From Candidatus Minthosoma caballi (GTDB taxonomy: Bacteria > Bacteroidota > Bacteroidia > Bacteroidales > Bacteroidaceae), in assembly GCA_018064505.1 (NCBI GenBank), contig JAGHVC010000049.1:1-57236 (forward strand): a DNA stretch of 57,236 nucleotides, written 5' to 3'. Under the pieces are notes generated by a model. It had not been told where the DNA came from. It was given only the letters and a program-made list of their open reading frames with translations, and did not search any database. Shown here piece after piece: positions 42,078-56,087 of this stretch. Made by a program: the position numbers and the translations under genes. The first letter of the stretch is position 1, and every line of letters starts with the position of its first letter.

Positions 42078-42737
42078 TTATTGCATACATTTTTTTATGT
42101 CGGCAATAACAGATTCAACATAAAAAGGATGTAAATCGTTTTTATTTATTTTCACCGCATACGCAGGTTTCCCACCATAAGGGTAATGATACGAAATATA
42201 ATCCGCATCTATCTTATTAGCAAAATCATATAAAACATAACTTGAATCCTTAGTAGAGAATCCAATAAACAAGGAATTTGACTGTTCAAGCTTTTTATAT
42301 TTAGAATCTCTTAAATGAATCAGTCCATTCTTATTCCAAAATCCCGTATAATCCGTCATAATCTCTAACAGTCGGTTTTTACCATTATAAGAAACAGATG
42401 AGTCACTACTTGCTGACACTCTACGATGCGAAAGGATTTCTCTATCTTTATCAGCACCTGCATGAGTTATTAATAATCCTGCATCTTTTAATTCTTCAAT
42501 CAAGTAGTCTTCAAACAACCAAGAAGCAACTAAATCTTGTGCATATTCTAACGGTGTTCTTGAATCTCGGTTATGTCTACAGGATAGTATATTTTCATAT
42601 ACATCTGGGAATCTTGCTTGCAGCTCATTAATTTCGCCATTCAGAATTAGAATATTTGAATCAGAATACTTAAGCTGAATTGCCAGATTTGACAAGCTTT
42701 CGCCTATGAAGTGAGGAAGTTCTCTAAATGCACCCAT
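42078..42737 (-). CDS. Putative type II restriction endonuclease
   Basis: The 219-residue cytoplasmic protein is the last gene of a leftward locus led by a C5 cytosine methyltransferase. Residues of about 120-150 contain LLEIMTDYTGFW followed by HLRDSKYKKL, a Glu...Asp-x-Lys arrangement compatible with the PD-(D/E)xK nuclease core. I recall a similar segment in HaeIII-like endonucleases but cannot confirm it. The ATG overlaps the end of the preceding broken gene by 14 bases, so it may be translationally coupled. A+T content is higher than in the flanking core genes, consistent with transfer. The recognition sequence is unknown, and it could instead be an accessory subunit. Confidence 0.65.
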   Translation of the reverse strand: MGAFRELPHFIGESLSNLAIQLKYSDSNILILNGEINELQARFPDVYENILSCRHNRDSRTPLEYAQDLVASWLFEDYLIEELKDAGLLITHAGADKDREILSHRRVSASSDSSVSYNGKNRLLEIMTDYTGFWNKNGLIHLRDSKYKKLEQSNSLFIGFSTKDSSYVLYDFANKIDADYISYHYPYGGKPAYAVKINKNDLHPFYVESVIADIKKCMQ

Positions 42738-43316: not shown

Positions 43317-44432
43317 TTACTTATTATTATCTAAATATTTCTTTACAGCTTCTTTGATAGCTTGCGATAAAAATGTAGGCACAGCATTTCCAATCTGAAG
43401 ATTTTTCTCTCCTCTAGAACCAAAAAAGATATAATCATCGGGAAAGCCTTGCAATCTTGCGCCTTCTCTCGTTGTAAGCGGGCGAGCATCCTTTGGATGA
43501 ATACATCGAGAAGAAGATGGCGTACCCAAGTTTCTTGTAATGGTTGTAGATGGCTTATTCCACCAAAGGCGGCAATAGGTATTACCGAAGCCGCTTTTGG
43601 GTCTAAGCTCCTCTGGAATGTCCCTCGGAGACCCACCATCTGGCAAAGCCTTCATTAAACGAACTAAATGCTCACCATTTTTTGGACAATTATGTTCCAG
43701 TATCTCATCAGAAGCATTCTGACGCATGAGTTTCTGATAGTCGTTTTGAGGAGGGCATGCATAATGAGTTCCAGAGCATCCTGATTCAATAGAAGGCAAG
43801 TCTCCTAATGCCTCCCCTAAGGTAACCCAAGGTTTTAATGGCTTGGCAAATATATCACCAACAGATCCATACTCAGAATGAGTCACTTCAGGATATTCAA
43901 AACCAGGTTTTCCCAATGTGCCAACAATGATTACCCTTTCTCTAATTTGAGGAGCACCATAATCAGCTGCATTTAACACTTTATACTGGACGATATAGCC
44001 TATAGATTCAAACAAAGAAACTACAGTCTCCATAAGTTCTCCACCCATCATAGACAGCATGCCTTTTACATTCTCAAAAACAAAGACTTTCGGCATGAGT
44101 TCTTTCAACACTCTGAAATACTCCTGAAAGAGTTTGCCTCGAGGGTCATCTATCAATCGTTTGCCCACTGTAGAATATGCCTGACAAGGAGGTCCACCCA
44201 CTACAACATCTATATCTCCCTTTTTTATACCTAAATCCGTTTCAAGATCTTTAATAGAGAAATCCTTGATATCCCTATTATACATCTTAACTTTGGGATT
44301 ATTCAGAGAATAGGCGGTAGCCATTGGCTTTAAGATTTCATTCGCAGCAACAACCTCAAACATAGAATCATGTTCAAAGCCGTAGGACAAGCCCCCAACG
44401 CCAGCGAACAAATCTATTAATTTATAAGCCAT
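43317..44432 (-). CDS. DNA (cytosine-5-)-methyltransferase, type II
   Basis: The 371-residue enzyme methylates C5 of a cytosine in a short target, protecting host DNA. Motif I DLFAGVGG is at residues 7-14, motif IV GGPPCQAYS has catalytic C83, and motif VI FENVKG has E120. Motif VIII QIRERV, a target recognition region (about 215-300) and motifs IX-X (TREGARLQGFPD, GNAVP) complete it. All motifs are intact and the length is normal. The target sequence cannot be predicted from the recognition domain by eye. The locus order is methyltransferase, broken gene, endonuclease candidate. The -7 box TAATTTTG at 44544-44551 implies a leader of about 110 bases. Confidence 0.95.
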   Translation of the reverse strand: MAYKLIDLFAGVGGLSYGFEHDSMFEVVAANEILKPMATAYSLNNPKVKMYNRDIKDFSIKDLETDLGIKKGDIDVVVGGPPCQAYSTVGKRLIDDPRGKLFQEYFRVLKELMPKVFVFENVKGMLSMMGGELMETVVSLFESIGYIVQYKVLNAADYGAPQIRERVIIVGTLGKPGFEYPEVTHSEYGSVGDIFAKPLKPWVTLGEALGDLPSIESGCSGTHYACPPQNDYQKLMRQNASDEILEHNCPKNGEHLVRLMKALPDGGSPRDIPEELRPKSGFGNTYCRLWWNKPSTTITRNLGTPSSSRCIHPKDARPLTTREGARLQGFPDDYIFFGSRGEKNLQIGNAVPTFLSQAIKEAVKKYLDNNK

Positions 44433-44855: not shown

Positions 44856-46238
44856 ATGATACAAGAAACTATAAACTACGAAGAGCGGTTGACAACCATA
44901 GCCAACACACGACTTATCTACAACACCATGGATGAGTTAGAGAACATGCTGGACAACAACTCCATTCACAGCAATGGAATAAAACGCTCCTTCCCAACCG
45001 AACAGAAACTGCGTTCTGCATACCGAGACATAAAAGGCGAAGTCGATTTGATGACCAGTGGCATACTCAACCTTGACATAATAATGCACCAATATCAGAA
45101 AGCATGGATATTCTTTCACACCAACCTCCACCGCAGAACCAATCCTGAGCAGGTCGCCTTAGAACTTCTGTCATTCTGCTATCCTCCATTTCTTCGCACA
45201 GGAATAAGTCCTAAACGCACCGCAATCTACCAACAAGTAATTGAACAGAAAATCAATGTTCCATTCCTATTGCTAATGCTCATGAAGGCAATTCCTGGAT
45301 ATGATTCAAAAGACGGTGATGCCGATAATATGCCTCTAATGTTCGATCGAATGCTGACACTGCTGCAAACTTTTGTAGACAAAGACTCTGGTATCAGCAT
45401 TCTGCCATCCTTTACTCGTGCCAGAAAAGAGACAAACATGTCAAGACTGATGCTGCTCTTCCATGTATCTCAAATTCTTGACACATACAATTCATACGCT
45501 GACAATATAAGCATTTACGAGACAGCATGCAATGTCAAGGCGAGTCATGTGAACTTGAACATTACAGGGTTCTGGAACGAATACGAAGGTACAGACTTCT
45601 GGCAGATAGAAAACACAACTGACCATGGCATATACTTCATGACCCACTGGCACAAAGATGCCGGCAATCACCTTACAGGCATTCGCTACACCCTATTCAT
45701 CATAGAGGGTGCAGACGGAACTCTTATCTACTACATGCTCCACCCCGAGGCAATCAAGCATAGAATGAAAGGACTTCAATACGGTGATGCAGATCAAGTC
45801 TGGTACACGACTGACTGGCTCGATGAAAGGCCAGACGAACTTCCCCTGCACAGACATTCGTGTTCAAATATATGGCAACCTGAAATTCATCTCACCAGAT
45901 GTTCCGATGACAATGTAATATCTCTGTATGAGCGTTGGTTAAACAATGAATGTGAAATAGTCAAACCATATCAGCATCTTGAATACACATTTCATCCAAC
46001 CCTATATGCTGTTACCCTCACTCACCTCTACATTCCATCAGAAAACGAAGGAGAATATTACAAAGTGCCGAAATCAGCATGTGAAGGCTTTGAACTAATT
46101 CAGTTAGGAGACAATGTTGGCACGATGCAGATGAACGGCAAGACATACCTTGCATTCGACGAGTTTTTGTTGTACATCGGCACCACCAAGAAGGAACTGC
46201 TGAAATACAACATAGAAAGAGTCAACTGTATCGAATAA
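44856..46238 (+). CDS. Orphan 460-residue protein of unknown function
   Basis: A soluble protein without signal peptide or membrane helix. The N-terminal half is helical (for example MDELENMLDNNSIHSNG and YQKAWIFFHTNLHRRTNPEQ) and the C-terminal half is richer in beta strands and aromatic residues, with several Trp and His (FMTHWHKDAGNH, LPLHRHSCSNIW). I do not recognise a family. Its last codons form the 5' arm of a terminator, so the gene end and terminator are one unit, and a second copy of that unit sits at 47285-47320. It lies alone between a restriction locus and a toxin-antitoxin pair, consistent with accessory DNA. Confidence 0.75.
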   Translation: MIQETINYEERLTTIANTRLIYNTMDELENMLDNNSIHSNGIKRSFPTEQKLRSAYRDIKGEVDLMTSGILNLDIIMHQYQKAWIFFHTNLHRRTNPEQVALELLSFCYPPFLRTGISPKRTAIYQQVIEQKINVPFLLLMLMKAIPGYDSKDGDADNMPLMFDRMLTLLQTFVDKDSGISILPSFTRARKETNMSRLMLLFHVSQILDTYNSYADNISIYETACNVKASHVNLNITGFWNEYEGTDFWQIENTTDHGIYFMTHWHKDAGNHLTGIRYTLFIIEGADGTLIYYMLHPEAIKHRMKGLQYGDADQVWYTTDWLDERPDELPLHRHSCSNIWQPEIHLTRCSDDNVISLYERWLNNECEIVKPYQHLEYTFHPTLYAVTLTHLYIPSENEGEYYKVPKSACEGFELIQLGDNVGTMQMNGKTYLAFDEFLLYIGTTKKELLKYNIERVNCIE

Positions 46239-46314: not shown

Positions 46315-46714
46315 ATATCAGATATTCCTCTAAATCCCCAGTCTCAGCCTCATAAATGAAAAGTTGAACAAGACGTATCAGTTCTGAATCAGATTCGGCA
46401 AGTTGCTGAAGCGGACCATTCTTAGGATAAATATCGAGAAAAGCAACCGTAGGCACTACCTTTGACACCAAATATATCAATCTAAAGCCATCTTTTTAAG
46501 CCAATCGGTGTTTCTTGTCTGGCAAACGGAGCTTTATAATTACCATATCTTCCTCCATCAGCACCATATCATTATTGATACGGATTTCCTCTATTGGTTT
46601 AGCATGAAACTCACGCCTTATTTCATCTTCCACTGTAGAGTAAACACCCTTCTTAACTTTGAGAAGTCCAGCCAAACGTTCTCTGAAATAAGATATAGTC
46701 GTAAATCTAACCAT
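46313..46714 (-). pseudogene. RelE/ParE-like toxin gene interrupted by an in-frame stop
   Basis: The first 72 codons (46714-46499) end LRLPDKKHRLA at a TAA (46496-46498). The same frame then continues with KDGFRLIYLVSKVVPTVAFL and about 40 more residues to a TAA at 46313-46315. The combined 132 residues read as one RelE-like protein: the KHRL-x-K-x-GFRLIY stretch followed by a VAFLDIYPK strand is typical of RelE/HigB-like ribonuclease toxins that cut mRNA on the ribosome. The stop removes the C-terminal beta strands, so the toxin is probably inactive unless read through. It lies 4 bases after the putative antitoxin gene. Confidence 0.7.
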
Positions 46715-46718
46715 CGTA

Positions 46719-47141
46719 CTACATATTCTTCATCACCTGACCAGCCTTTGCGAGAACATTTTTCAATTCTTCACGCTTTGTCCCACAAACAGAAAAAGCA
46801 ACAATATCAGAGTTCAGTTCTGAAAGAGCAGAATAATTCATACCAAGCTTGCGGGTTTCCTCTTTCAAACCTAATTCTTTTGGGGCTTTGCGACAAGAAT
46901 TGTAAAGCCCCTTCATTGTTTCCAGCAACATCTTGAATTGACCTCCAAATACTTCATAGTCATCAGCTGTTACAGTTCTCCATTGAGCATACAACAACTC
47001 ATAGAGACTATCTAAGTCCCTATTGAGTCTTGCCAATTGGTTCACACGATACACATTGTGTGACACAATTTCCAACCTATGATTATAGGTACGCCTGCTC
47101 ATACGTACCATATTCTGTGATATCAAGACCGTCTGACACAT
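46719..47141 (-). CDS. Putative antitoxin-like partner of the broken toxin
   Basis: The 140-residue, all-helical basic protein has no signal peptide. Its N-terminus (SRRTYNHRLEIVSHNVYRVN) is rich in Arg and His and could bind DNA. An ATG at residue 11 or 14 is a possible later start. It is the first gene of a two-gene unit with the RelE-like toxin gene, and a palindrome covers its promoter, the arrangement of a self-repressing toxin-antitoxin operon. I do not recognise the antitoxin family, so the role is inferred from position. Confidence 0.6.
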   Translation of the reverse strand: MCQTVLISQNMVRMSRRTYNHRLEIVSHNVYRVNQLARLNRDLDSLYELLYAQWRTVTADDYEVFGGQFKMLLETMKGLYNSCRKAPKELGLKEETRKLGMNYSALSELNSDIVAFSVCGTKREELKNVLAKAGQVMKNM

Positions 47142-47524: not shown

Positions 47525-47929
47525 TCACTTATACCTTATTTCTGGCGGAACAATCCTTATCGTAGAATGGTCGTTCTCCTGATTCACCATAGGTATTTCA
47601 CCGGGCTGGCATAACTTGTACACCTCATTGTCGATGTAGTCGCTGAGGTCAGAGATGTTGCCCTTATTTGCTCCGAAATTGAGCAAGTTGAGCCATGACC
47701 GAGAACTTGACTCAATCACCACCTTGCATGTCTGACTGCTCGTAGCCACCACCTTCATCTTCACATTCTCGCTGAAAGGTGAAAGCCATGCGCCATGACG
47801 AGCCTCAACTATGAAGAGATCATCATCAGTCTTCACGCTACTAAATCTAGTTCGCTTGCGAAACAAGTTCTTAACAGCCGTATAGGTTGTTCTCGCATTA
47901 TGTGGAAATTCAAGAATTGATGTTTGCAT
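47525..47929 (-). CDS. Small protein, last gene of the dynamin/ACP operon
   Basis: The 134-residue soluble protein has no signal peptide or transmembrane helix. The sequence suggests a compact alpha+beta fold with many Ser and Thr and a basic N-terminal patch (KNLFRKRTRF). It faintly recalls DUF1499-type proteins (an early Val-Lys pattern, then VVIESSSRSWLNLL), but I am not confident. It is 47 bases downstream of the ACP-fusion gene in the same direction. A fossil of its 3' end is found at 46264-46314, so the gene has been duplicated and lost once. Confidence 0.7.
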   Translation of the reverse strand: MQTSILEFPHNARTTYTAVKNLFRKRTRFSSVKTDDDLFIVEARHGAWLSPFSENVKMKVVATSSQTCKVVIESSSRSWLNLLNFGANKGNISDLSDYIDNEVYKLCQPGEIPMVNQENDHSTIRIVPPEIRYK

Positions 47930-47976
47930 ATTCTTAAATGTGGTTCTGTTACGGCTTTCTTTAGATTATATGATCT

Positions 47977-49131
47977 TTATCTATAGTGTCTCCCTATATA
48001 TATTATTGCATCACCTACAGTTTGTATTCTCTCTGCAACTTCATCAGGGATATTTAATCCAAATTCTTTTTCAAATCTCATGATAAGTTCAACGGCATCT
48101 AAAGAATCTGCCCCCAAGTCATTTGTAAAAGATGCATTTTCTACTACATCATATGGGCTAACATTTAAAGTTTCAGCTACAATAGTTTTAATTCTTGAAG
48201 ACACAGAGACATCTCCATCATAAGATGACAAGTTATTGTATACCGAGTTATTTGCAATTCTTGAATCAATTTCCTCAAAACCAGCAGCGATAATTTTGTC
48301 AAATTCTTTCCCATATTTCTTTCTAAAAGTTTCTTCATCAATTTCGATATTTTGTTCATCGTAATATATTGGAGTAGCGTCATCATTCATTGTACTCGCT
48401 ATAGCCAAACAATTCTTGTGTAAACACCATACAATTGATGCTACCGATTTTTTGATTTCTATTTCAAATCTTTCATCAGATGAATATAAAGTTCCTGTAA
48501 ATTCTTCACCATCAACATAAACTAAAGTATTTCCATCTTGATCCTTTACTATCGTAACTGAGTCATCAGATATTGGCAACCTAATTTCCTCATTTTCATT
48601 CGGTCCATTAATTGTATGAATGATATAATTATTGCCATCTTCGTGAAGTTCATTTATTGTGAAGACGAAATGCCATTCATCTCCATCTTCAGACAATTTG
48701 TCAATGAATTCGGATGTTTCTTCGTCAACTTCGAAATTACAGCTTACATTAGGGAACCCATAGCCTTTTTCCAATACGCCTAGTTCATGTTTTCCAATTA
48801 ATAATACATTATCATTAGCCCATTCATTATTATCTCTGCGTTTTTCACTTATCCAGCAAATGACAGAAAGAGTACCAGTTGTCTCATTAGATTGATTGTC
48901 AATTCTATCACATGAGAACTCTACATTATTGGCATGCTCATAATTATATACCGGATTCGAAGTCGATACAGAAGATGAATACTCCCCCCTTTTTACTGGC
49001 TTTGTTTGAGTAGGTTGTCTTTTGGGGGTGTCTTTTGCTGTTGTATTCCCAATTTCATTTTGTTCAATGTTTATTGGACGAGAATTTCCATTTTTCTTTG
49101 TTGTGCCTCCTAATATTGAATTTAGATCCAT
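47977..49131 (-). CDS. Protein with C-terminal acyl carrier protein domain
   Basis: The 384-residue protein ends in a complete acyl carrier protein domain (about 310-384): [21 protein letters not shown] with S343 as the phosphopantetheine attachment site, preceded by the usual helix I ([12 protein letters not shown]) and followed by the helix III/IV region. The N-terminal 60 residues are polar and probably disordered, and residues 65-300 form an acidic, beta-rich region without a recognised fold. No condensing or adenylating enzyme is adjacent, so this is not a normal fatty acid or polyketide module. It lies between the dynamin-like GTPase genes and the 47525 gene in one operon. A role in carrying a lipid-derived acyl group to a membrane process is speculative. 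Confidence 0.85.
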
Positions 49132-49180
49132 AAATGTAAGTTTTTATAAAGAGGAACGGTAGAGTTCCTCTCTTGGGTTA

Positions 49181-51211
49181 TTAAATTGATGCTATTTGTT
49201 TCTCAATAATCTCTTTTTCTTTTTTGAGAGATACTAATTTGTTTTCTGCTTCTTTGAGTTTTTGTTCTTTCTTACTCTTATCAGCGATTATCTCGTCAAT
49301 CTTTTCCTGAAGAGGTTCGATAAGCTCCTCAATGAAACGTGTTTTTACAGTTTCTATTACCTCTTCTTTACGATTGAATACAGAATCAAGGCATTCTGTA
49401 ACATCGGAATTTCTAAGATTGTTTACATATTGATGTAATTTAGTCTTGGTGTCACCATGTGTGATGAAGTTTCCAATACCTTCTAACACTCCCCATGACG
49501 CACCATTTAAAACAGCCAAAAGGTAATCAATAATTCCCTCATCTTCGTCACTTGAATTTTCAAAAGTGAATGCACTCTCGTCATTGATCTCAAGCGTAAT
49601 TTCTTTATCAATACCTTTCACGAAATCTCTCGAATCAAAGTCAGGAACATAACGCATTAATACATCTTCGGCTTCGCTAAAGAACTCTATAACACAGCTT
49701 TTTATCTTAGCCTTTGCAGCATCACCAACTGATTCCACATCGTACTTAAGAGTCCTTGTAATTAGTGTTTGAAGTTCTCTGTCTAACTGAGGAATAATAG
49801 AATTTGGAGAATCGAAGCGACCAAGCCCTTCAATAATACCATCCATACGTTTACAAGCTGATTCCAAACTATCCTCAAGTTGGTTTCTTCCCTTCCTTAC
49901 AACATCTCTAAGAGCAGAATCTATTTCATCACCGAGAGTATCTATTTTTTTGTTTAGGCGTTTATTTGCTCTTGCAAGATTGTTCTGTTTTTCCTCTAAC
50001 TCATCATCTGGTTGATTCAAAGCATTTATAAGAATGTTGTTCTCTTGTATCCCTTTATCTATGTCCGCTTTCTTCTTATTAGCAGCTGCAAGAATCGCAT
50101 TCATTGGTTTACGGAAAAGTATTTCTTCCTTTTCTGTTTCTACAACTTTTTTCACCGCTGAGATAAGATTGTCTATATGACTCTTTTCTCTCATCTGTTT
50201 TTGGTTGCTTATTTCAAATGTATCACAATTGCGTTTCCAAGCAAACTGGTATGCATCGCTACTTGTAATCTTTCCCATTGACAATTCTGACAATAACGCC
50301 ATTTCAGCAGACAGCGGTATTGGCGCTGTATTTTTCAAAACATCCACCAATAGGGTGTCATTGCATTCTTTGCAAGCATTTCGAAGTTGATCTACTACAT
50401 ACTGCTTTATTTCATCCTCAGTCTCACCATTTTCAAAAGGAATATCATACTTGTTAATTCCAACAAGCACCTTGCCAGTTCCGCATTGCCCCACATTCTT
50501 GAACAAGATTGTCCTATCGGTTGCATCAAAAGGTCTTCCTGCATAAAGCATGAGCAAAACAACATCTGCTTTCTTTAAGAATTCTTTTGTTCGTTCTTCA
50601 CGAGAAACAATAGGGTCATTGAATCCTGGGGTATCAACAATCTCAACTCCTTTGAGATAGTCCTTAGGATAGTATATTTTTACAGACTTTGTAATGGATA
50701 TGTACTTACCATCTGCACCAACATACTCTATAAGGTTTTCAAAAGTGTCGTTTTGAGTCTTGCCTAAAAAACTATTTAATGAAGAACCAAGTTTGCTTGA
50801 CTTTTCAACAAGTTCCTTTGCCGCCTTGACCTTCGACTCTTCAAGTTCATTCCCTACAACGTCCTCTAATGATCGAGATGCTTGCAGTTTCTGTTCTTCC
50901 CATTCATCTTTAGAATAGAATTCTGCAACTATTTTCTTTTCTTCACCGTATGTTATTATTGATAGAGCTGCAGTCATTGGAGTGGTTGCAGATGGCAGTA
51001 TGTCATCCTCAAATACAAAAGCATTGAGGAACGTCGATTTGCCACATTTCATTTGCCCAATTACTCCAATAGTGAGAACATCATTGTTGAGTTTGTCAAC
51101 AATTTCCTTCTCTCGGTTAGCATCAATCCAACCAAATTCTTTTGCTTTATTTGCAAGATACAAAAGATTTTTCTTTTTCTCTTGCAATTCTTCAAACATG
51201 TTTTGTGCCAT
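49181..51211 (-). CDS. Dynamin-like GTPase (third GTPase gene of the operon)
   Basis: The 676-residue cytoplasmic protein has an N-terminal GTPase: G1 GQMKCGKST (52-60), a G2 Thr near 77-80 in ATTPMT, G3 DTPGFND (193-199) and G4 NKYD (253-256). The remaining 400 residues are long helices with strong coiled-coil character (for example around 385-450 and 640-676), the stalk layout of bacterial dynamin-like proteins. A short hydrophobic patch near 585-600 (DYLLAVLNGASWGVL) might insert in membrane. Such proteins hydrolyse GTP to tubulate or fuse membranes, in pairs in some bacteria. Its stop is 50 bases from the ACP gene and its start 3 bases from the previous gene. Confidence 0.9.
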   Translation of the reverse strand: MAQNMFEELQEKKKNLLYLANKAKEFGWIDANREKEIVDKLNNDVLTIGVIGQMKCGKSTFLNAFVFEDDILPSATTPMTAALSIITYGEEKKIVAEFYSKDEWEEQKLQASRSLEDVVGNELEESKVKAAKELVEKSSKLGSSLNSFLGKTQNDTFENLIEYVGADGKYISITKSVKIYYPKDYLKGVEIVDTPGFNDPIVSREERTKEFLKKADVVLLMLYAGRPFDATDRTILFKNVGQCGTGKVLVGINKYDIPFENGETEDEIKQYVVDQLRNACKECNDTLLVDVLKNTAPIPLSAEMALLSELSMGKITSSDAYQFAWKRNCDTFEISNQKQMREKSHIDNLISAVKKVVETEKEEILFRKPMNAILAAANKKKADIDKGIQENNILINALNQPDDELEEKQNNLARANKRLNKKIDTLGDEIDSALRDVVRKGRNQLEDSLESACKRMDGIIEGLGRFDSPNSIIPQLDRELQTLITRTLKYDVESVGDAAKAKIKSCVIEFFSEAEDVLMRYVPDFDSRDFVKGIDKEITLEINDESAFTFENSSDEDEGIIDYLLAVLNGASWGVLEGIGNFITHGDTKTKLHQYVNNLRNSDVTECLDSVFNRKEEVIETVKTRFIEELIEPLQEKIDEIIADKSKKEQKLKEAENKLVSLKKEKEIIEKQIASI

Positions 51212-51213
51212 AA

Positions 51214-53067
51214 TTATTTCTTTAAGTCATTAACCTTTGTTTTAAGCATATTCAGACACTCATTAAGTCTTTGCCATTGAACTCTTTCCTCTGCATGCGT
51301 ATTCCACGCCTGTTCAAGTTCACCTCTTGCCTCCATTTGTTGATTATACAAATCACACAAAGCATCACAACGAGTACCACAAATTGTCTGCAACAATCCT
51401 GTCATTCTATTATAATCGTAGATAGACATCTCGTAACCATCTTTTCTGAATAAGTGTTCCTCAAAATGAGGGATGCCTGCTACAGTTTCACAATCATTTG
51501 ATAGGTTTCGGATAGCAGTATTGTAACTATTCACGAGATTATTACTAATATTCAACAATCTGTCGGCTTCTTTTTTTGCATCCACTACATCTTGTTCCTG
51601 TGCATTTGTCCAAGATTGAACAGCGTCAATCAATGTTTCCAGATAATTATCTTTTGCTGAATCTCTTCCCACTGATTTTATAGGATTCATGATATCAGCC
51701 AAAGGAGCCTTTGATGAGAACCTGATAAAGCCCTTGACCGTTAACCCTGCCTCAGAAAGAGTTTTGCGAATTAAGCTTTCAACTTTATCAACTTCCGATG
51801 TTGCTTTAGTATCAACCTTATTGATGATAACATACAAAGGTTTATGAAGATGTTGCTTTATCAAATTAATAGAAGCTCTATTTACTGTTCCTGCATTAAC
51901 ATCAAACACCCAGAACAAAGCGTCACATTCGTTAATTACTCCGATGGTACGCTCTGCATCTTCTTTGTCATTAGAATTAAATCCTGGTGTATCCAAAATG
52001 CTAAGAGATTGGAGATTAGGATTCTTATACTTCATAACAAAGTATTGAATCAAAGAAGACATCCCTTGTACTTGATCTAATACTTCTTTGTTTACACGCT
52101 TAAAGGTTTTTTCATCAAGATTTTTCAGTTGGTTATCTGGTGTGAAAAATTGATATATAGTCCCAACACCACCTGAAATATATGTAGGGATTGCGGTAGT
52201 CGCTTTTGTGCTTACAGGAAGTAGCGGAACATTAGGATCATCCTGAGAAAGGATACGGTTTACGATTGAAGTTTTACCAGCAGAGAATTCGCCTACAAAA
52301 GCAATCGAAGTCTTACCCTTTATCCAGTCCTTTTTGGCTGTGGCAACCCAACTTTTCAGACCATCTCCAAACAAAGCCTCTTTTGCATCTTCTTTTAAGT
52401 TATAAATACCACATACTGTTTCTTGTAATTCCGTAGTGATAAAATCTGACAAACCATCAATCTTTGGATACAATTTTGCGATAGATGCATCACTTGATTG
52501 CTTTGCAGTAAGAATCTCCTGAACGAAAGTCAAAGATTCCATCTTTAGATTAAGTTCATTGATTTTATCATTTAATTCTTCTCTTGCCTTTTCTAATTCT
52601 TCTGATACTACTTTGTAGTTCTTATTTATCTTATCTAATTCATCTTGTAGTCCTTTTGCTTCAACGTCTTTTGTCTTAAGCTTCTTCTTAGCACTGTCAA
52701 GATCATCCTCCATTTCTTCAAGATCATCTTCAAGATTCTTAATTTTCTTCTTCAACTTGTCAGTTTCTGCTAACTGCGTTTTTAACGACTCATCTACTTT
52801 GCCATCCAAAGCAGCTTGCAACTGTTTGTTTAGATTTTCCACTTTGGAATTAGCTTCATCAAGTGCAGACTGTTGCTTTTTCTTTAATGATTCTATTTCC
52901 GCTTTATATGATTCTATCTGCTTCAAATATTCAGCGGACTTGTCTCCACTTTTGCCTTTTTCCTGCACTGATGTTGAAGGAGTTCTTTTTGTTCCTCCAA
53001 ATAACTTTGCCAAAACAATGCCTACGACAAAAGCCAAAATTATATATACGATTGTCATTGTATCCAT
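51214..53067 (-). CDS. Membrane-anchored coiled-coil GTPase (dynamin-like)
   Basis: The 617-residue protein has an N-terminal transmembrane helix (about 5-22), a long coiled coil (about 45-180), then a GTPase domain. G1 GEFSAGKT is at 259-266, followed by a switch I Thr, G3 DTPGFNS at 359-365 and G4 NKVD at 416-419. A helical C-terminus follows (about 470-617). The GxFSxGKT G1 form is that of dynamin-like proteins. The order anchor, coiled coil, GTPase is unusual for a dynamin, which normally has the GTPase first. The short coiled-coil protein encoded upstream looks like a relative of the N-terminal part. Start-to-stop spacings of 3 and 6 bases with both neighbours point to one transcript. 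Confidence 0.88.
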   Translation of the reverse strand: MDTMTIVYIILAFVVGIVLAKLFGGTKRTPSTSVQEKGKSGDKSAEYLKQIESYKAEIESLKKKQQSALDEANSKVENLNKQLQAALDGKVDESLKTQLAETDKLKKKIKNLEDDLEEMEDDLDSAKKKLKTKDVEAKGLQDELDKINKNYKVVSEELEKAREELNDKINELNLKMESLTFVQEILTAKQSSDASIAKLYPKIDGLSDFITTELQETVCGIYNLKEDAKEALFGDGLKSWVATAKKDWIKGKTSIAFVGEFSAGKTSIVNRILSQDDPNVPLLPVSTKATTAIPTYISGGVGTIYQFFTPDNQLKNLDEKTFKRVNKEVLDQVQGMSSLIQYFVMKYKNPNLQSLSILDTPGFNSNDKEDAERTIGVINECDALFWVFDVNAGTVNRASINLIKQHLHKPLYVIINKVDTKATSEVDKVESLIRKTLSEAGLTVKGFIRFSSKAPLADIMNPIKSVGRDSAKDNYLETLIDAVQSWTNAQEQDVVDAKKEADRLLNISNNLVNSYNTAIRNLSNDCETVAGIPHFEEHLFRKDGYEMSIYDYNRMTGLLQTICGTRCDALCDLYNQQMEARGELEQAWNTHAEERVQWQRLNECLNMLKTKVNDLKK

Positions 53068-53073
53068 AACCCA

Positions 53074-53457
53074 TTAATTATTTGCCAGTTTTGCCTCATA
53101 AGAAGCACAAATTTCTTTATATTCTGATATCTTACGCATTAAGTCTTCGTTTTGTGCAGTAAGTTTTTTAATCTTAGCCTTTGCATCAGCGAGATCGTCT
53201 TCCAAATCATCCAGATCATCACCAGATGTCTTTGAAGCACGACGCAACTTATCATTCTCTGATAACAAGTCTTCAATCTGACGCTCTGCATCCTTGTATC
53301 TTTTACGAAGCTGTTCGTTTTCGTCACTCAATGCATCAAGTTCTTTTTCTGATTTTGACTGAGCTTTATTATTGTTTCCTACACGCCCCTTAAGGAATGC
53401 TCCTCCTGCGGCACCAGCAATTAAACCTGCTAATAATTCTAACATATTGAATTTCAT
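53074..53457 (-). CDS. Short membrane-anchored coiled-coil protein
   Basis: The 127-residue protein has an N-terminal hydrophobic, Gly/Ala-rich segment (LLAGLIAGAAGGAFL, about 7-21), probably a membrane anchor, and then a continuous charged coiled coil to the C-terminus. Its DDLDDLEDDLADAKAKIKKL stretch resembles the coiled coil of the next gene (LEDDLEEMEDDLDSAKKKL). The two may pair through their coiled coils; that is inference. It lies 2 bases after the first GTPase gene and 6 bases before the membrane-anchored GTPase. Confidence 0.82.
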   Translation of the reverse strand: MKFNMLELLAGLIAGAAGGAFLKGRVGNNNKAQSKSEKELDALSDENEQLRKRYKDAERQIEDLLSENDKLRRASKTSGDDLDDLEDDLADAKAKIKKLTAQNEDLMRKISEYKEICASYEAKLANN

Positions 53458-53459
53458 AA

Positions 53460-55175
53460 TTAGATTGTTAATAATTCATTTTTATAGTCTCGAAGTATTT
53501 CCATGCGTTTATTAAACTCCTGTACTTTATCATGTCTCGCCTGTTTCATACTTTCAAGAATATTAGTCATTTCTTCTACAGAAGAAGATGCTTCACGCCT
53601 TAAATCTTCCCTTACAGTTTGTTTCAACAATGAGGATATGTTATTTACAGACATCTTAAATTCAGGAAGAAGTGTTCCATCCAAATAGTTATGAATGGCT
53701 CTGCGACGCTGAGGTTTTCCTGCATATTGCTCTGTAAAGTAACCAACAACACTCTCAACAATTCCCTTTCCTCCAATAGGATTCTGAGACGAAGCAGAAT
53801 TCGTTACTGTTGAAACTACCTTATCTCCATCAAATAATACATCAGAAGCTGTATCTGCAGCATCAAACAAAGCAGATCCTCCAGCTACTGCACCTCCTGC
53901 ATAAGCAGCTGCAGCAACAGCAGCCACTTTAACTCCTGTCGCTATCCAACCATCATATTCATGACCCACTTGATTTAGGTTCAAGTTATAGCTTAATCCA
54001 TCAACAGAATAGGCGGACAAATCCATCTCGGCTATCGAACGCAAATCTATGGCTCCGTCAGATGTTCTTACTTCCATCGCTTTTTTGCTAATACATTCCT
54101 TAACAGCTGTCTTAAATTCATTGATAAAAAGACTGGAAGTTGTATTTATAGCTGAGACCGCCTCTGCATCAAAATTTGTACTTTTACCTACAACCAGTGT
54201 ATCAAGACGTTCAAATACCCTATCTTCAAAGTTTCTTACTGTATTGCGTTCTATCTCTTCAATATCACTTTGAATACTTTCGATAAGACTATCAATATTG
54301 CGATTTAACTTTTTCAATTCATATTGTTGTCTGCGTATAGCCTCGTCTGCATCCTTATCAGAAGCAGAAGCTGCCAACAGATCATCAATACGCTTTAACA
54401 TTTCATCTGCAATATTCTTCAACCTTTGTGCATTAACCTTTGCAAGTATTTCATTCTTTGACTTTTGTATGTCCTCAAACAAACAATATAATTCATTAAG
54501 GTTACCTTTTGTTGCAGAAACACAAGCAATATTTTCAATAGGTAATTGAGTGTTATTGCTTATATACTCTTTTGCTGCCACAATCTCACTCTCAGCCTTT
54601 GTGTCACTTTTTGTCAACACAATGTATATCGGACGTTTTGAAAGAGATATTGTTTTAATGAAATCTGTTATCGAACGTGTTATCTGTTGATTGATGTCAG
54701 AAACCAGAAGAATTGCATCTGCATGAGGCATGAAATCAACTAATGTCTGTTTATGGCGTGGATCAGGAGAAGATAATCCCGGAGTATCAACGAGAATCGT
54801 CGAAGAAGGAACTTTATTAGAAGTATCATAAACCTCAACAACTGTTGCGTCTGCAAGAATCTCGTTCTTTAATTCTGCAATATCTGACACTTCCGTAATC
54901 GTTCCATCACCATTCATAACTTTTGCATGACACACATCACATCCAAAATGTATTTCATAAATAGTTGCAGTTGTTGGCTTTGTTGCAGTTTCAAGCTTTT
55001 TGCTATCAGTCAACGCATTTATCAAAGTAGTCTTTCCTGAACTAAATTCACCTACTAATGGTAATACGAGAGGACAATTTGCAGATTCTCTCTTTTGTGA
55101 TATTATCTTTAGGTCCTTACATAAATCGGCAAAACCTAAATCTTCGGCAATCTGAAGTATTTTATAGCTGTCCAT
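53460..55175 (-). CDS. Dynamin-like GTPase (first GTPase gene of the operon)
   Basis: The 571-residue protein has an N-terminal dynamin-type GTPase: G1 GEFSSGKTT (42-50), G2 Thr residues near 66-69 in KPTTAT, G3 DTPGLSS (130-136) and G4 TKSD (188-191). A helical, coiled-coil region (about 235-330) follows. Near 412-450 is an Ala/Gly-rich hydrophobic stretch (VAAVAAAAYAGGAVAGG) that could be a membrane-insertion paddle, and a helical C-terminus returns to form a stalk. This is the full bacterial dynamin-like layout (GTPase, stalk, paddle). It follows the DUF6140 gene by 2 bases. Confidence 0.9.
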   Translation of the reverse strand: MDSYKILQIAEDLGFADLCKDLKIISQKRESANCPLVLPLVGEFSSGKTTLINALTDSKKLETATKPTTATIYEIHFGCDVCHAKVMNGDGTITEVSDIAELKNEILADATVVEVYDTSNKVPSSTILVDTPGLSSPDPRHKQTLVDFMPHADAILLVSDINQQITRSITDFIKTISLSKRPIYIVLTKSDTKAESEIVAAKEYISNNTQLPIENIACVSATKGNLNELYCLFEDIQKSKNEILAKVNAQRLKNIADEMLKRIDDLLAASASDKDADEAIRRQQYELKKLNRNIDSLIESIQSDIEEIERNTVRNFEDRVFERLDTLVVGKSTNFDAEAVSAINTTSSLFINEFKTAVKECISKKAMEVRTSDGAIDLRSIAEMDLSAYSVDGLSYNLNLNQVGHEYDGWIATGVKVAAVAAAAYAGGAVAGGSALFDAADTASDVLFDGDKVVSTVTNSASSQNPIGGKGIVESVVGYFTEQYAGKPQRRRAIHNYLDGTLLPEFKMSVNNISSLLKQTVREDLRREASSSVEEMTNILESMKQARHDKVQEFNKRMEILRDYKNELLTI

Positions 55176-55177
55176 AT

Positions 55178-55399
55178 TTATCCAATTCTATTAACTTCCA
55201 AATCTACATTATTCAATGCTCCTGCTTTCTTTATATCAATACCATAGATACGATAGAAAGCATCGACAACAGCCTGTCCGCCATTTGTGGTGACAGGATT
55301 GGACATAGAGTTACTTACTACTTGAACCGACATACCTGGTTCAAGACGGATTCCGTTGGAATTCTTGGTGCGTTTCACGCTGACTTGAAATAGTGGCAT
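55178..55399 (-). CDS. Small DUF6140-like protein, first gene of the dynamin operon
   Basis: The 73-residue product begins MPLFQVSVKRTKNSNGIRLEPGM; this pattern with a following SVQVVSNS and YGIDIKKAG matches my memory of DUF6140 proteins of Bacteroidales, small beta-rich proteins without known function. It is preceded by an exceptionally good Shine-Dalgarno sequence for this phylum (AGGAGG, 55407-55412, 7 bases from the ATG) and a structured leader. The strong ribosome binding site suggests it is made in larger amounts than the GTPases that follow. Confidence 0.75.
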   Translation of the reverse strand: MPLFQVSVKRTKNSNGIRLEPGMSVQVVSNSMSNPVTTNGGQAVVDAFYRIYGIDIKKAGALNNVDLEVNRIG

Positions 55400-55877: not shown

Positions 55878-56087
55878 TCAGGTTTGGGCTTTCCAAATTT
55901 TTTTGTAGATATAAGGAGGGCCAAAGATTCCCCAGAATGTCATGCTATCTACAGGATATGTGTGCATGCTTCCACATTTAGGACATTGGACTGGTGCAAT
56001 GATGGCGCAAGCATACCACTCTGCTGCTACGCCTTCAAAATGTTCGCCACAGTTGTCACACTTGAAATTTGTTGTTCCACAAACCAT
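55878..56087 (-). CDS. Small zinc-ribbon protein
   Basis: The 69-residue protein has two CxxC knuckles (C10-x2-C13 and C35-x2-C38), a classic zinc ribbon, with the second in VQCPKCGSMHTYP. The C-terminus is aromatic and Pro-rich (MTFWGIFGPPYIYKKIW). It is probably a cytoplasmic zinc-binding protein; nucleic acid or protein binding is possible but not shown. It lies upstream of the dynamin operon with its own -7 box (TATCTTTG, 56146-56153), 58 bases from the ATG. Confidence 0.75.
   Translation of the reverse strand: MVCGTTNFKCDNCGEHFEGVAAEWYACAIIAPVQCPKCGSMHTYPVDSMTFWGIFGPPYIYKKIWKAQT

Follow-up and report, generated by a model that had tools for sequence, protein, structure and literature searches.

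A recurring trio of dynamin-like proteins in Bacteroidales, probably the centre of an undescribed membrane-based defence module

Introduction

What does a bacterium do with three different dynamin-like GTPases encoded side by side, and which of the genes around them belong to the same device? This question is raised by a run of seven leftward genes in a 57,236-nucleotide stretch of Candidatus Minthosoma caballi (assembly GCA_018064505.1, contig JAGHVC010000049.1), the whole of which is called the window below. In order of transcription, the genes are labelled A (DUF6140 protein), B (dynamin-like protein, DLP), C (short coiled-coil protein), D (anchored coiled-coil DLP), E (DLP), F (protein with an acyl carrier protein, ACP, domain) and G. 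An initial annotation from sequence had taken the seven for one unit, a multi-GTPase membrane machine linked to acyl or lipid chemistry that could serve in defence. The conserved unit is made up of the four genes B-C-D-E, not of seven. This core is probably a membrane-based defence module that has not been described so far, because the DLP trio recurs in distant bacteria and because small partner genes are common to it and to an anti-phage dynamin system.

Distribution and divergence of the four-gene core

Ten loci with a strong match to E were compared, namely the window, L014 to L019, L099, L100 and L104 (subtype I in the following), and in 10/10 the genes follow in the same order B-C-D-E, with C between B and D each time. 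The seven genes supposed to travel together are thus reduced to four that co-occur, and F has been seen nowhere else. Strong matches to E are rare, with 7 of 399 genomes in the family and 3 of 295 in the order, the own genome counted in both, and 1 of 198 in a sample of the phylum, which is the own genome; among GTDB contigs a single relative was found, in Candidatus Prevotella equi (80%), and the core is absent from all 20 listed genomes of the same genus. The GC (guanine plus cytosine) content of B to E amounts to 35.7-37.2% versus a mean of 44.3% (sd 3.6, lowest 33.9; 1 kb steps over bases 1-43000), and F has the lowest value of the seven genes (33.2%). The expectation that the locus is accessory and not housekeeping is upheld by the low GC content and the 7/399 family genomes, and the core is read as an accessory, horizontally transferred unit.

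The core genes have diverged in concert. Identity matrices of B, C, D and E over nine loci correlate with r 0.89-0.92 (0-1 of 5000 permutations as high). When six loci with DUF6140 are taken, core pairs still reach r 0.72-0.81 (1-13 of 720 permutations as high), whereas DUF6140 versus the core gives r 0.06-0.44 on the same six loci (71-309 of 720). E is the most conserved of the DLPs. Two of the loci, L099 and L100, are near copies with B, C and E 96-100% and D 85% identical. Between the window and Prevotella equi, E (L014:10001-12034) is 80% identical and B, C and D are 60-62% identical, a contrast in sequence identity from which exchange within the operon appears possible. The D protein of the Prevotella equi locus has a degenerate G4 motif.

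Sequence features of the core proteins

The three DLPs of the window score well above the Dynamin_N cut-off (PF00350, cut-off 27), with 76.7 bits for B, 63.8 for D and 83.2 for E, and each carries a G domain with complete G1, G3 and G4 motifs (GEFSSGKT / DTPG / TKSD in B, GEFSAGKT / DTPG / NKVD in D and GQMKCGKST / DTPG / NKYD in E), which places all three in the dynamin superfamily as first proposed. Among themselves they are 22-29% identical in local alignments, and the nearest solved structure by sequence is a different one for each: 5owv, presumably the Campylobacter Cj-DLP1/2 pair, for E (9.9e-15), IniA for B (1.9e-6) and EHD4 for D (2.2e-5). Because of this low identity and these different structural neighbours, B, D and E are not recent duplicates.

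D starts with a strong hydrophobic segment (KD19 of 2.60 in the window) followed by a coil, and the N-terminal anchor is present in 7/7 aligned rows, the window included. The same plan of anchor and coil, supposed to be repeated in C, holds for D and returns in C in a weaker form (KD19 of 1.51 in the window, then a coil; 5/7 rows pass a KD19 of 1.6), and a Pfam scan of the whole of C gave generic coil matches among the 25 of 106 families listed. B possesses an Ala/Gly-rich hydrophobic stretch near residues 417-437, a putative paddle, again in 7/7 aligned rows including the window, and no consistent hydrophobic stretch was seen across the aligned rows of E. The notion of a membrane machine with several GTPases is supported.

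The DLP trio in distant bacteria

Weaker matches to E led to further three-DLP loci, four of them in the family (L020, L021, L023 and L024) and others on plasmids of Calditerrivibrio, Pseudomonas aeruginosa, Photobacterium and Escherichia albertii / E. coli. Including the window, 16 three-DLP loci from Bacteroidales, Deferribacterota and gammaproteobacterial plasmids each contribute one member to each of three clades, and in blastp comparisons among these loci the best match of every DLP lies in its own class. A maximum-likelihood tree of 59 G domains, its root left open, includes 16 rows each of B, D and E. Support is 99/91 for the B clade (16 rows), 99/93 for the E clade (16 rows; 99/95 together with two Ruegeria rows and one L022 row) and 99/96 for the D clade (16 rows and one L022 row). 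On the tree, the B, D and E classes need one change each (0 of 500 shuffles as low), and every class splits into the same eight rows of subtype I, the window type, and eight rows of subtype II. Other Ruegeria rows, Lysinibacillus and DynA fall outside the three classes, many of them on long branches. A smaller tree that includes four Leo rows recovers the E class with 98/96 and the B class with 83/75, and the D class is broken in it by one long LeoBC row.

As judged from these sequence relationships, the trio appears to be old, its three DLPs to have been inherited together and to move horizontally, with the window representing subtype I. C and the anchor of D look like marks of subtype I, since C has no match in L020, L021, L023 and L024 and five subtype II D proteins come without a strong N-terminal anchor (KD19 1.02-1.47). 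Among 5426 E. coli genomes, 5 contain trios, which are nearly identical and all plasmid-borne.

Some of the plasmid loci have surroundings of their own. The Photobacterium trio (L110:1620-13573) is located in a conjugation region between traU and traN. On a Ruegeria plasmid (L116:472-12846), genes for a serine/threonine kinase and an FHA protein come after four dynamin genes. In L114, an E. coli plasmid, the gene after the trio overlaps it by 8 bases and encodes a protein of 829 aa (L114:13100-15589) with the annotation CFI-box-CTERM, for which no Pfam match was found at E 0.001.

Shuffled partner genes

DUF6140 and G are shuffled partners of the core. The DUF6140 gene lies upstream of B in 6/10 subtype I loci, with no copy detected in L017, L099, L100 and L104; it is present in 26/121 family genomes, and in 22 of 24 further DUF6140 stretches blastp detected no dynamin-type gene, the exceptions being L057, with a fragment of B at the contig end, and L072. 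One DUF6140 fragment (L113:18-125) opens a contig filed as 'Bacteriophage sp.', a label that is unverified. G belongs to 3/10 core loci (the window, L014 and L016) and occurs elsewhere beside other cores or without a core, some copies being broken by a stop or shift; from a tentative fold that is common in lipid-binding proteins, it may bind lipids. A G-like gene is also located after an SPFH gene and ahead of an AAA_21 ATPase gene that overlaps another reading frame (L101:15909-19901).

Among the neighbours are a zinc ribbon (Z), a two-finger protein (c6), DUF1232 (which we take to be YkvA), a weakly UDG-like protein, an LHH nuclease, c2 and an M48 peptidase. The UDG-like protein of L104 reaches 16.5 bits at a cut-off of 24.3, and its copy in L015 has no match; c2 occurs in 10/121 family genomes, in 5 of these 10 at most ~12 kb from a DUF6140 gene.

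F contains the predicted acyl carrier domain at its C-terminus (PF00550, 50.2 bits, cut-off 20.8; for TIGR00517 see Table 1), with the DSL motif intact and the phosphopantetheine serine present as in an ACP-type sequence, and this domain is 66% identical to another ACP-like frame in the same genome. The N-terminal 297 aa were found in 1/295 genomes of the order, the own one, and 0/9 other core loci have a match to F. The supposed link to acyl or lipid chemistry is not supported, because that N-terminal part is confined to its own genome among these Bacteroidales. A second ACP-domain protein, 502 aa long and with zinc-ribbon matches, was observed in a DUF6140 locus (L066:714-2222); its ACP domain (33.8 bits, cut-off 20.8) reads DDL in place of DSL, and a weak match to EF-Tu domain 2 (28.4 bits, cut-off 30.3) was recorded.

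Defence context

The better evidence for defence comes from relatives of the window: in P. aeruginosa a trio neighbours Zorya and restriction-type genes, and two Eleos-type loci have accessory genes in common with the trio loci; of the earlier suggestion of a defence system it can be said that some context points that way. In one P. aeruginosa plasmid, ~1.8 kb separate the trio from a ZorC gene (702 bits), and this interval contains a WYL regulator; a second plasmid has zorA and restriction-type genes ~6-13 kb upstream of its trio, the first DLP of which is annotated as two pieces. Within subtype I, a WYL gene is located ~1.2 kb downstream of E in L104, and in L099 the strand of E also carries an LHH nuclease gene ~2.7 kb downstream, LHH matches being obtained for 2 of 101 flank proteins. 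A PADLOC scan of these 101 proteins gave, among the 25 of 89 families listed, a methylase, AbiEi, AbiEii, IetA in two and PDC-S27 in two.

Strong matches to the LeoA model of Eleos occur in 2/61 family genomes, with 353 bits (G034) and 299 bits (G048). In one of these loci (L072), DUF6140, YkvA, Z, LHH and c2 genes are found on the opposite strand and c10 on the same strand; in the other (L122), c6 and Z directly precede the large partner gene on the same strand, at a distance of 28 bases. The large partner genes of both loci are assigned to LeoBC by position and P-loop, not by a scan with a LeoBC model.

Several observations weigh against a defence role or a fixed trio. The PADLOC scan of the flanks has no control set, so its counts are no measure of enrichment, and the Pfam matches of the flanks are rich in housekeeping genes among the 25 of 112 families listed. 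The annotation of one E. coli trio record shows ccdAB as the sole defence neighbour within 8 kb. Only two Eleos-type loci stand behind the argument from shared partners, and in L072 ~2.2 kb separate the zinc ribbon from LeoA, which is encoded on the other strand. Equally, the trio is not strict: L022 pairs D- and E-type genes and lacks one of B type, and a Moraxella plasmid (L112:3295-10589) encodes an E-type DLP and a D-type DLP of 1291 aa, with no B-type gene in a stretch that is cut at the end of the record.

Operon layout and surroundings

The genome is 88% complete and in 245 contigs, the window being contig 5. All seven leftward genes were confirmed as open reading frames, together spanning 47525-55399, with gaps from A to G of 2, 2, 6, 2, 49 and 47 bases; four of the spacings given initially agree with these values, and those of 3 and 50 bases are corrected to 2 and 49. 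An adjacent restriction locus had been proposed; only a C5 methylase (43317-44432) was recognised in it, and Pfam and PADLOC gave no match for the adjoining gene (42078-42737). The gene pair at 46496-47141, thought to be a toxin-antitoxin pair, found no counterpart in Pfam, PADLOC or PHROGs, and both assignments are weaker than that of the operon.

Table 1. Genes of the operon and recurrent neighbours in the window
Feature	Position	Strand	Match or relatives
A, DUF6140, 73 aa, first gene of the operon	55178..55399	-	PF19637 121.6 bits, cut-off 27
B, dynamin-like GTPase, 571 aa	53460..55175	-	Dynamin_N 2.9e-21
C, short protein, 127 aa, glycine-rich hydrophobic N-terminus and coiled coil	53074..53457	-	coil matches only
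D, dynamin-like GTPase, 617 aa, N-terminal anchor and long coiled coil preceding the G domain	51214..53067	-	Dynamin_N 2.6e-17
E, dynamin-like GTPase, 676 aa	49181..51211	-	Dynamin_N 2.9e-23
F, 384 aa, uncharacterised N-terminal part, C-terminal acyl carrier domain	47977..49131	-	TIGR00517 92.8 bits, cut-off 70.45
G, 134 aa, occasional last gene, tentative helix-grip fold	47525..47929	-	
Small gene	55878..56087	-	relatives in L014, L020, L021, L072, L077, L078, L099, L100, and in L122 upstream of the LeoBC-like gene
c2, 460 aa, recurrent neighbour of such loci	44856..46238	+	no Pfam match

Proposed mechanism and alternative explanations

On balance it is just probable that the core works as a membrane-surveillance defence module in the manner of Eleos or DynA and by the mechanism outlined here. 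D and C would be held in the inner membrane by their N-terminal segments, together building a coiled-coil scaffold, onto which B, with its putative hydrophobic paddle, and E would dock as soluble DLPs in a hetero-oligomer once the membrane is injured, for example by phage DNA entry, lysis or conjugation. Such recruitment to a C/D scaffold is modelled on the tethering of membranes by Cj-DLP1/2 and the delay of lysis by DynA. GTP-driven assembly might then reshape or seal the membrane and delay lysis or, as an alternative output, switch on a partner from the exchangeable tail, perhaps the ACP protein F in the window and the LHH nuclease or the weakly UDG-like protein elsewhere. A wider proposal is put forward tentatively, as possible while short of probable: the loci may represent an unnamed anti-phage or anti-plasmid system of at least three phyla, in which the co-inherited, divergent DLP trio would be sensor and engine and which in Bacteroidales would occupy the exchangeable slot of Eleos (loci with DUF6140, zinc ribbon and YkvA), with the LHH nuclease, the UDG-like protein and the ACP as swapped partners.

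Envelope stress or membrane repair unrelated to phages, with the DLPs keeping the membrane intact under antibiotic or other stress, would be an unlikely function overall, and is the alternative to which B itself points through its structural neighbour. IniA serves membrane upkeep under stress, like DynA, and the gene pool with DUF1232 and the M48 peptidase, together with the SPFH protein beside one copy of G, can be read in the same sense, as can the membrane surveillance against antibiotics described for DynA in the available part of PMC8844932. The core is, however, patchy, partly plasmid-borne and absent from the listed genomes of its own genus, and ZorC beside a P. aeruginosa trio as well as the nuclease partners speak for something other than upkeep. 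The location on plasmids, and between traU and traN in Photobacterium, would equally suit a selfish module that promotes its own spread through stability or anti-plasmid action; this is improbable with housekeeping genes such as secY and dnaA in the flanks of the ten Bacteroidales loci.

A machine for vesicles or secretion would find its precedent in LeoABC, where knock-outs of leoA or leoB lower vesicle release by roughly half according to the available text of PMC4159319, but no recurrent secretion gene accompanies the core among the 25 of 112 Pfam families listed, and we consider this decidedly improbable. Highly improbable is a machine in which F would hand acyl groups to the membrane under control of the DLPs: the intact DSL motif of its AcpP-type domain, the related ACP-like frame of the genome and the tentative fold of G would suit it, whereas none of the nine other core loci has F, the N-terminal part of F is missing from all 294 other genomes of the order, the operon genes include no acyl enzyme, and the ACP relative in L066 lacks the serine. 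A membrane-based defence module remains the preferred explanation. If it is correct, the set of DUF6140, zinc-ribbon and YkvA genes provides a handle for finding more such modules in Bacteroidales.

Comparison with known systems

No member-level match in PADLOC or NCBIfam was obtained, in agreement with the initial statement that no named system has such a composition. Eleos (LeoA and LeoBC, PDLC03839 / PDLC03841) resembles the trio in that DLPs are encoded side by side, and its two loci with strong LeoA matches have zinc-ribbon, c6, DUF6140 or YkvA neighbours like the trio loci. In contrast to Eleos, the DLPs of the window reach 31-58 bits on both models, compared with 299 and 353 for the LeoA genes, and the window encodes three whole DLPs and C; the leo operon of E. 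coli consists of three open reading frames, of which leoB and leoC are halves of one DLP, as far as PMC4159319 is available. In the tree with four Leo rows LeoA stands outside the three DLP classes, and LeoBC is unstable on long branches. The NCBIfam LeoA model matches D only (16.4 bits, cut-off 325). Membership in Eleos was rejected by these PADLOC scores and by composition, with three whole DLPs in 10/10 subtype I loci.

Mycobacterial IniA is akin to the trio as nearest solved relative of B by sequence, and we know of no anchored DLP or trio with it. Bacillus DynA forms membrane clusters and delays phage lysis (PMC8844932, available part) and, unlike the trio, has two DLPs fused in one protein (PMC6104087, available part); the NCBIfam DynA model gives 39.8-48.1 bits for the DLPs of the window at a cut-off of 1600. 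The Campylobacter Cj-DLP1/2 operon is heterotypic like the one described here and its products tether membranes, but it has two DLPs, and an anchored coil partner goes unmentioned in the available sections of PMC6104087. According to the same sections, bacterial DLPs mostly come as pairs, with up to eight in some cyanobacteria, and larger complexes have been suggested. In the literature searched, subscription journals being mostly outside its scope, no description of a three-DLP operon of this kind was found. The window and 15 other loci share a DLP trio, their operons each encoding one B-class, one D-class and one E-class protein, and its recurrence in distant bacteria makes it a well-delimited case for studying the division of labour among several dynamins at a single membrane.

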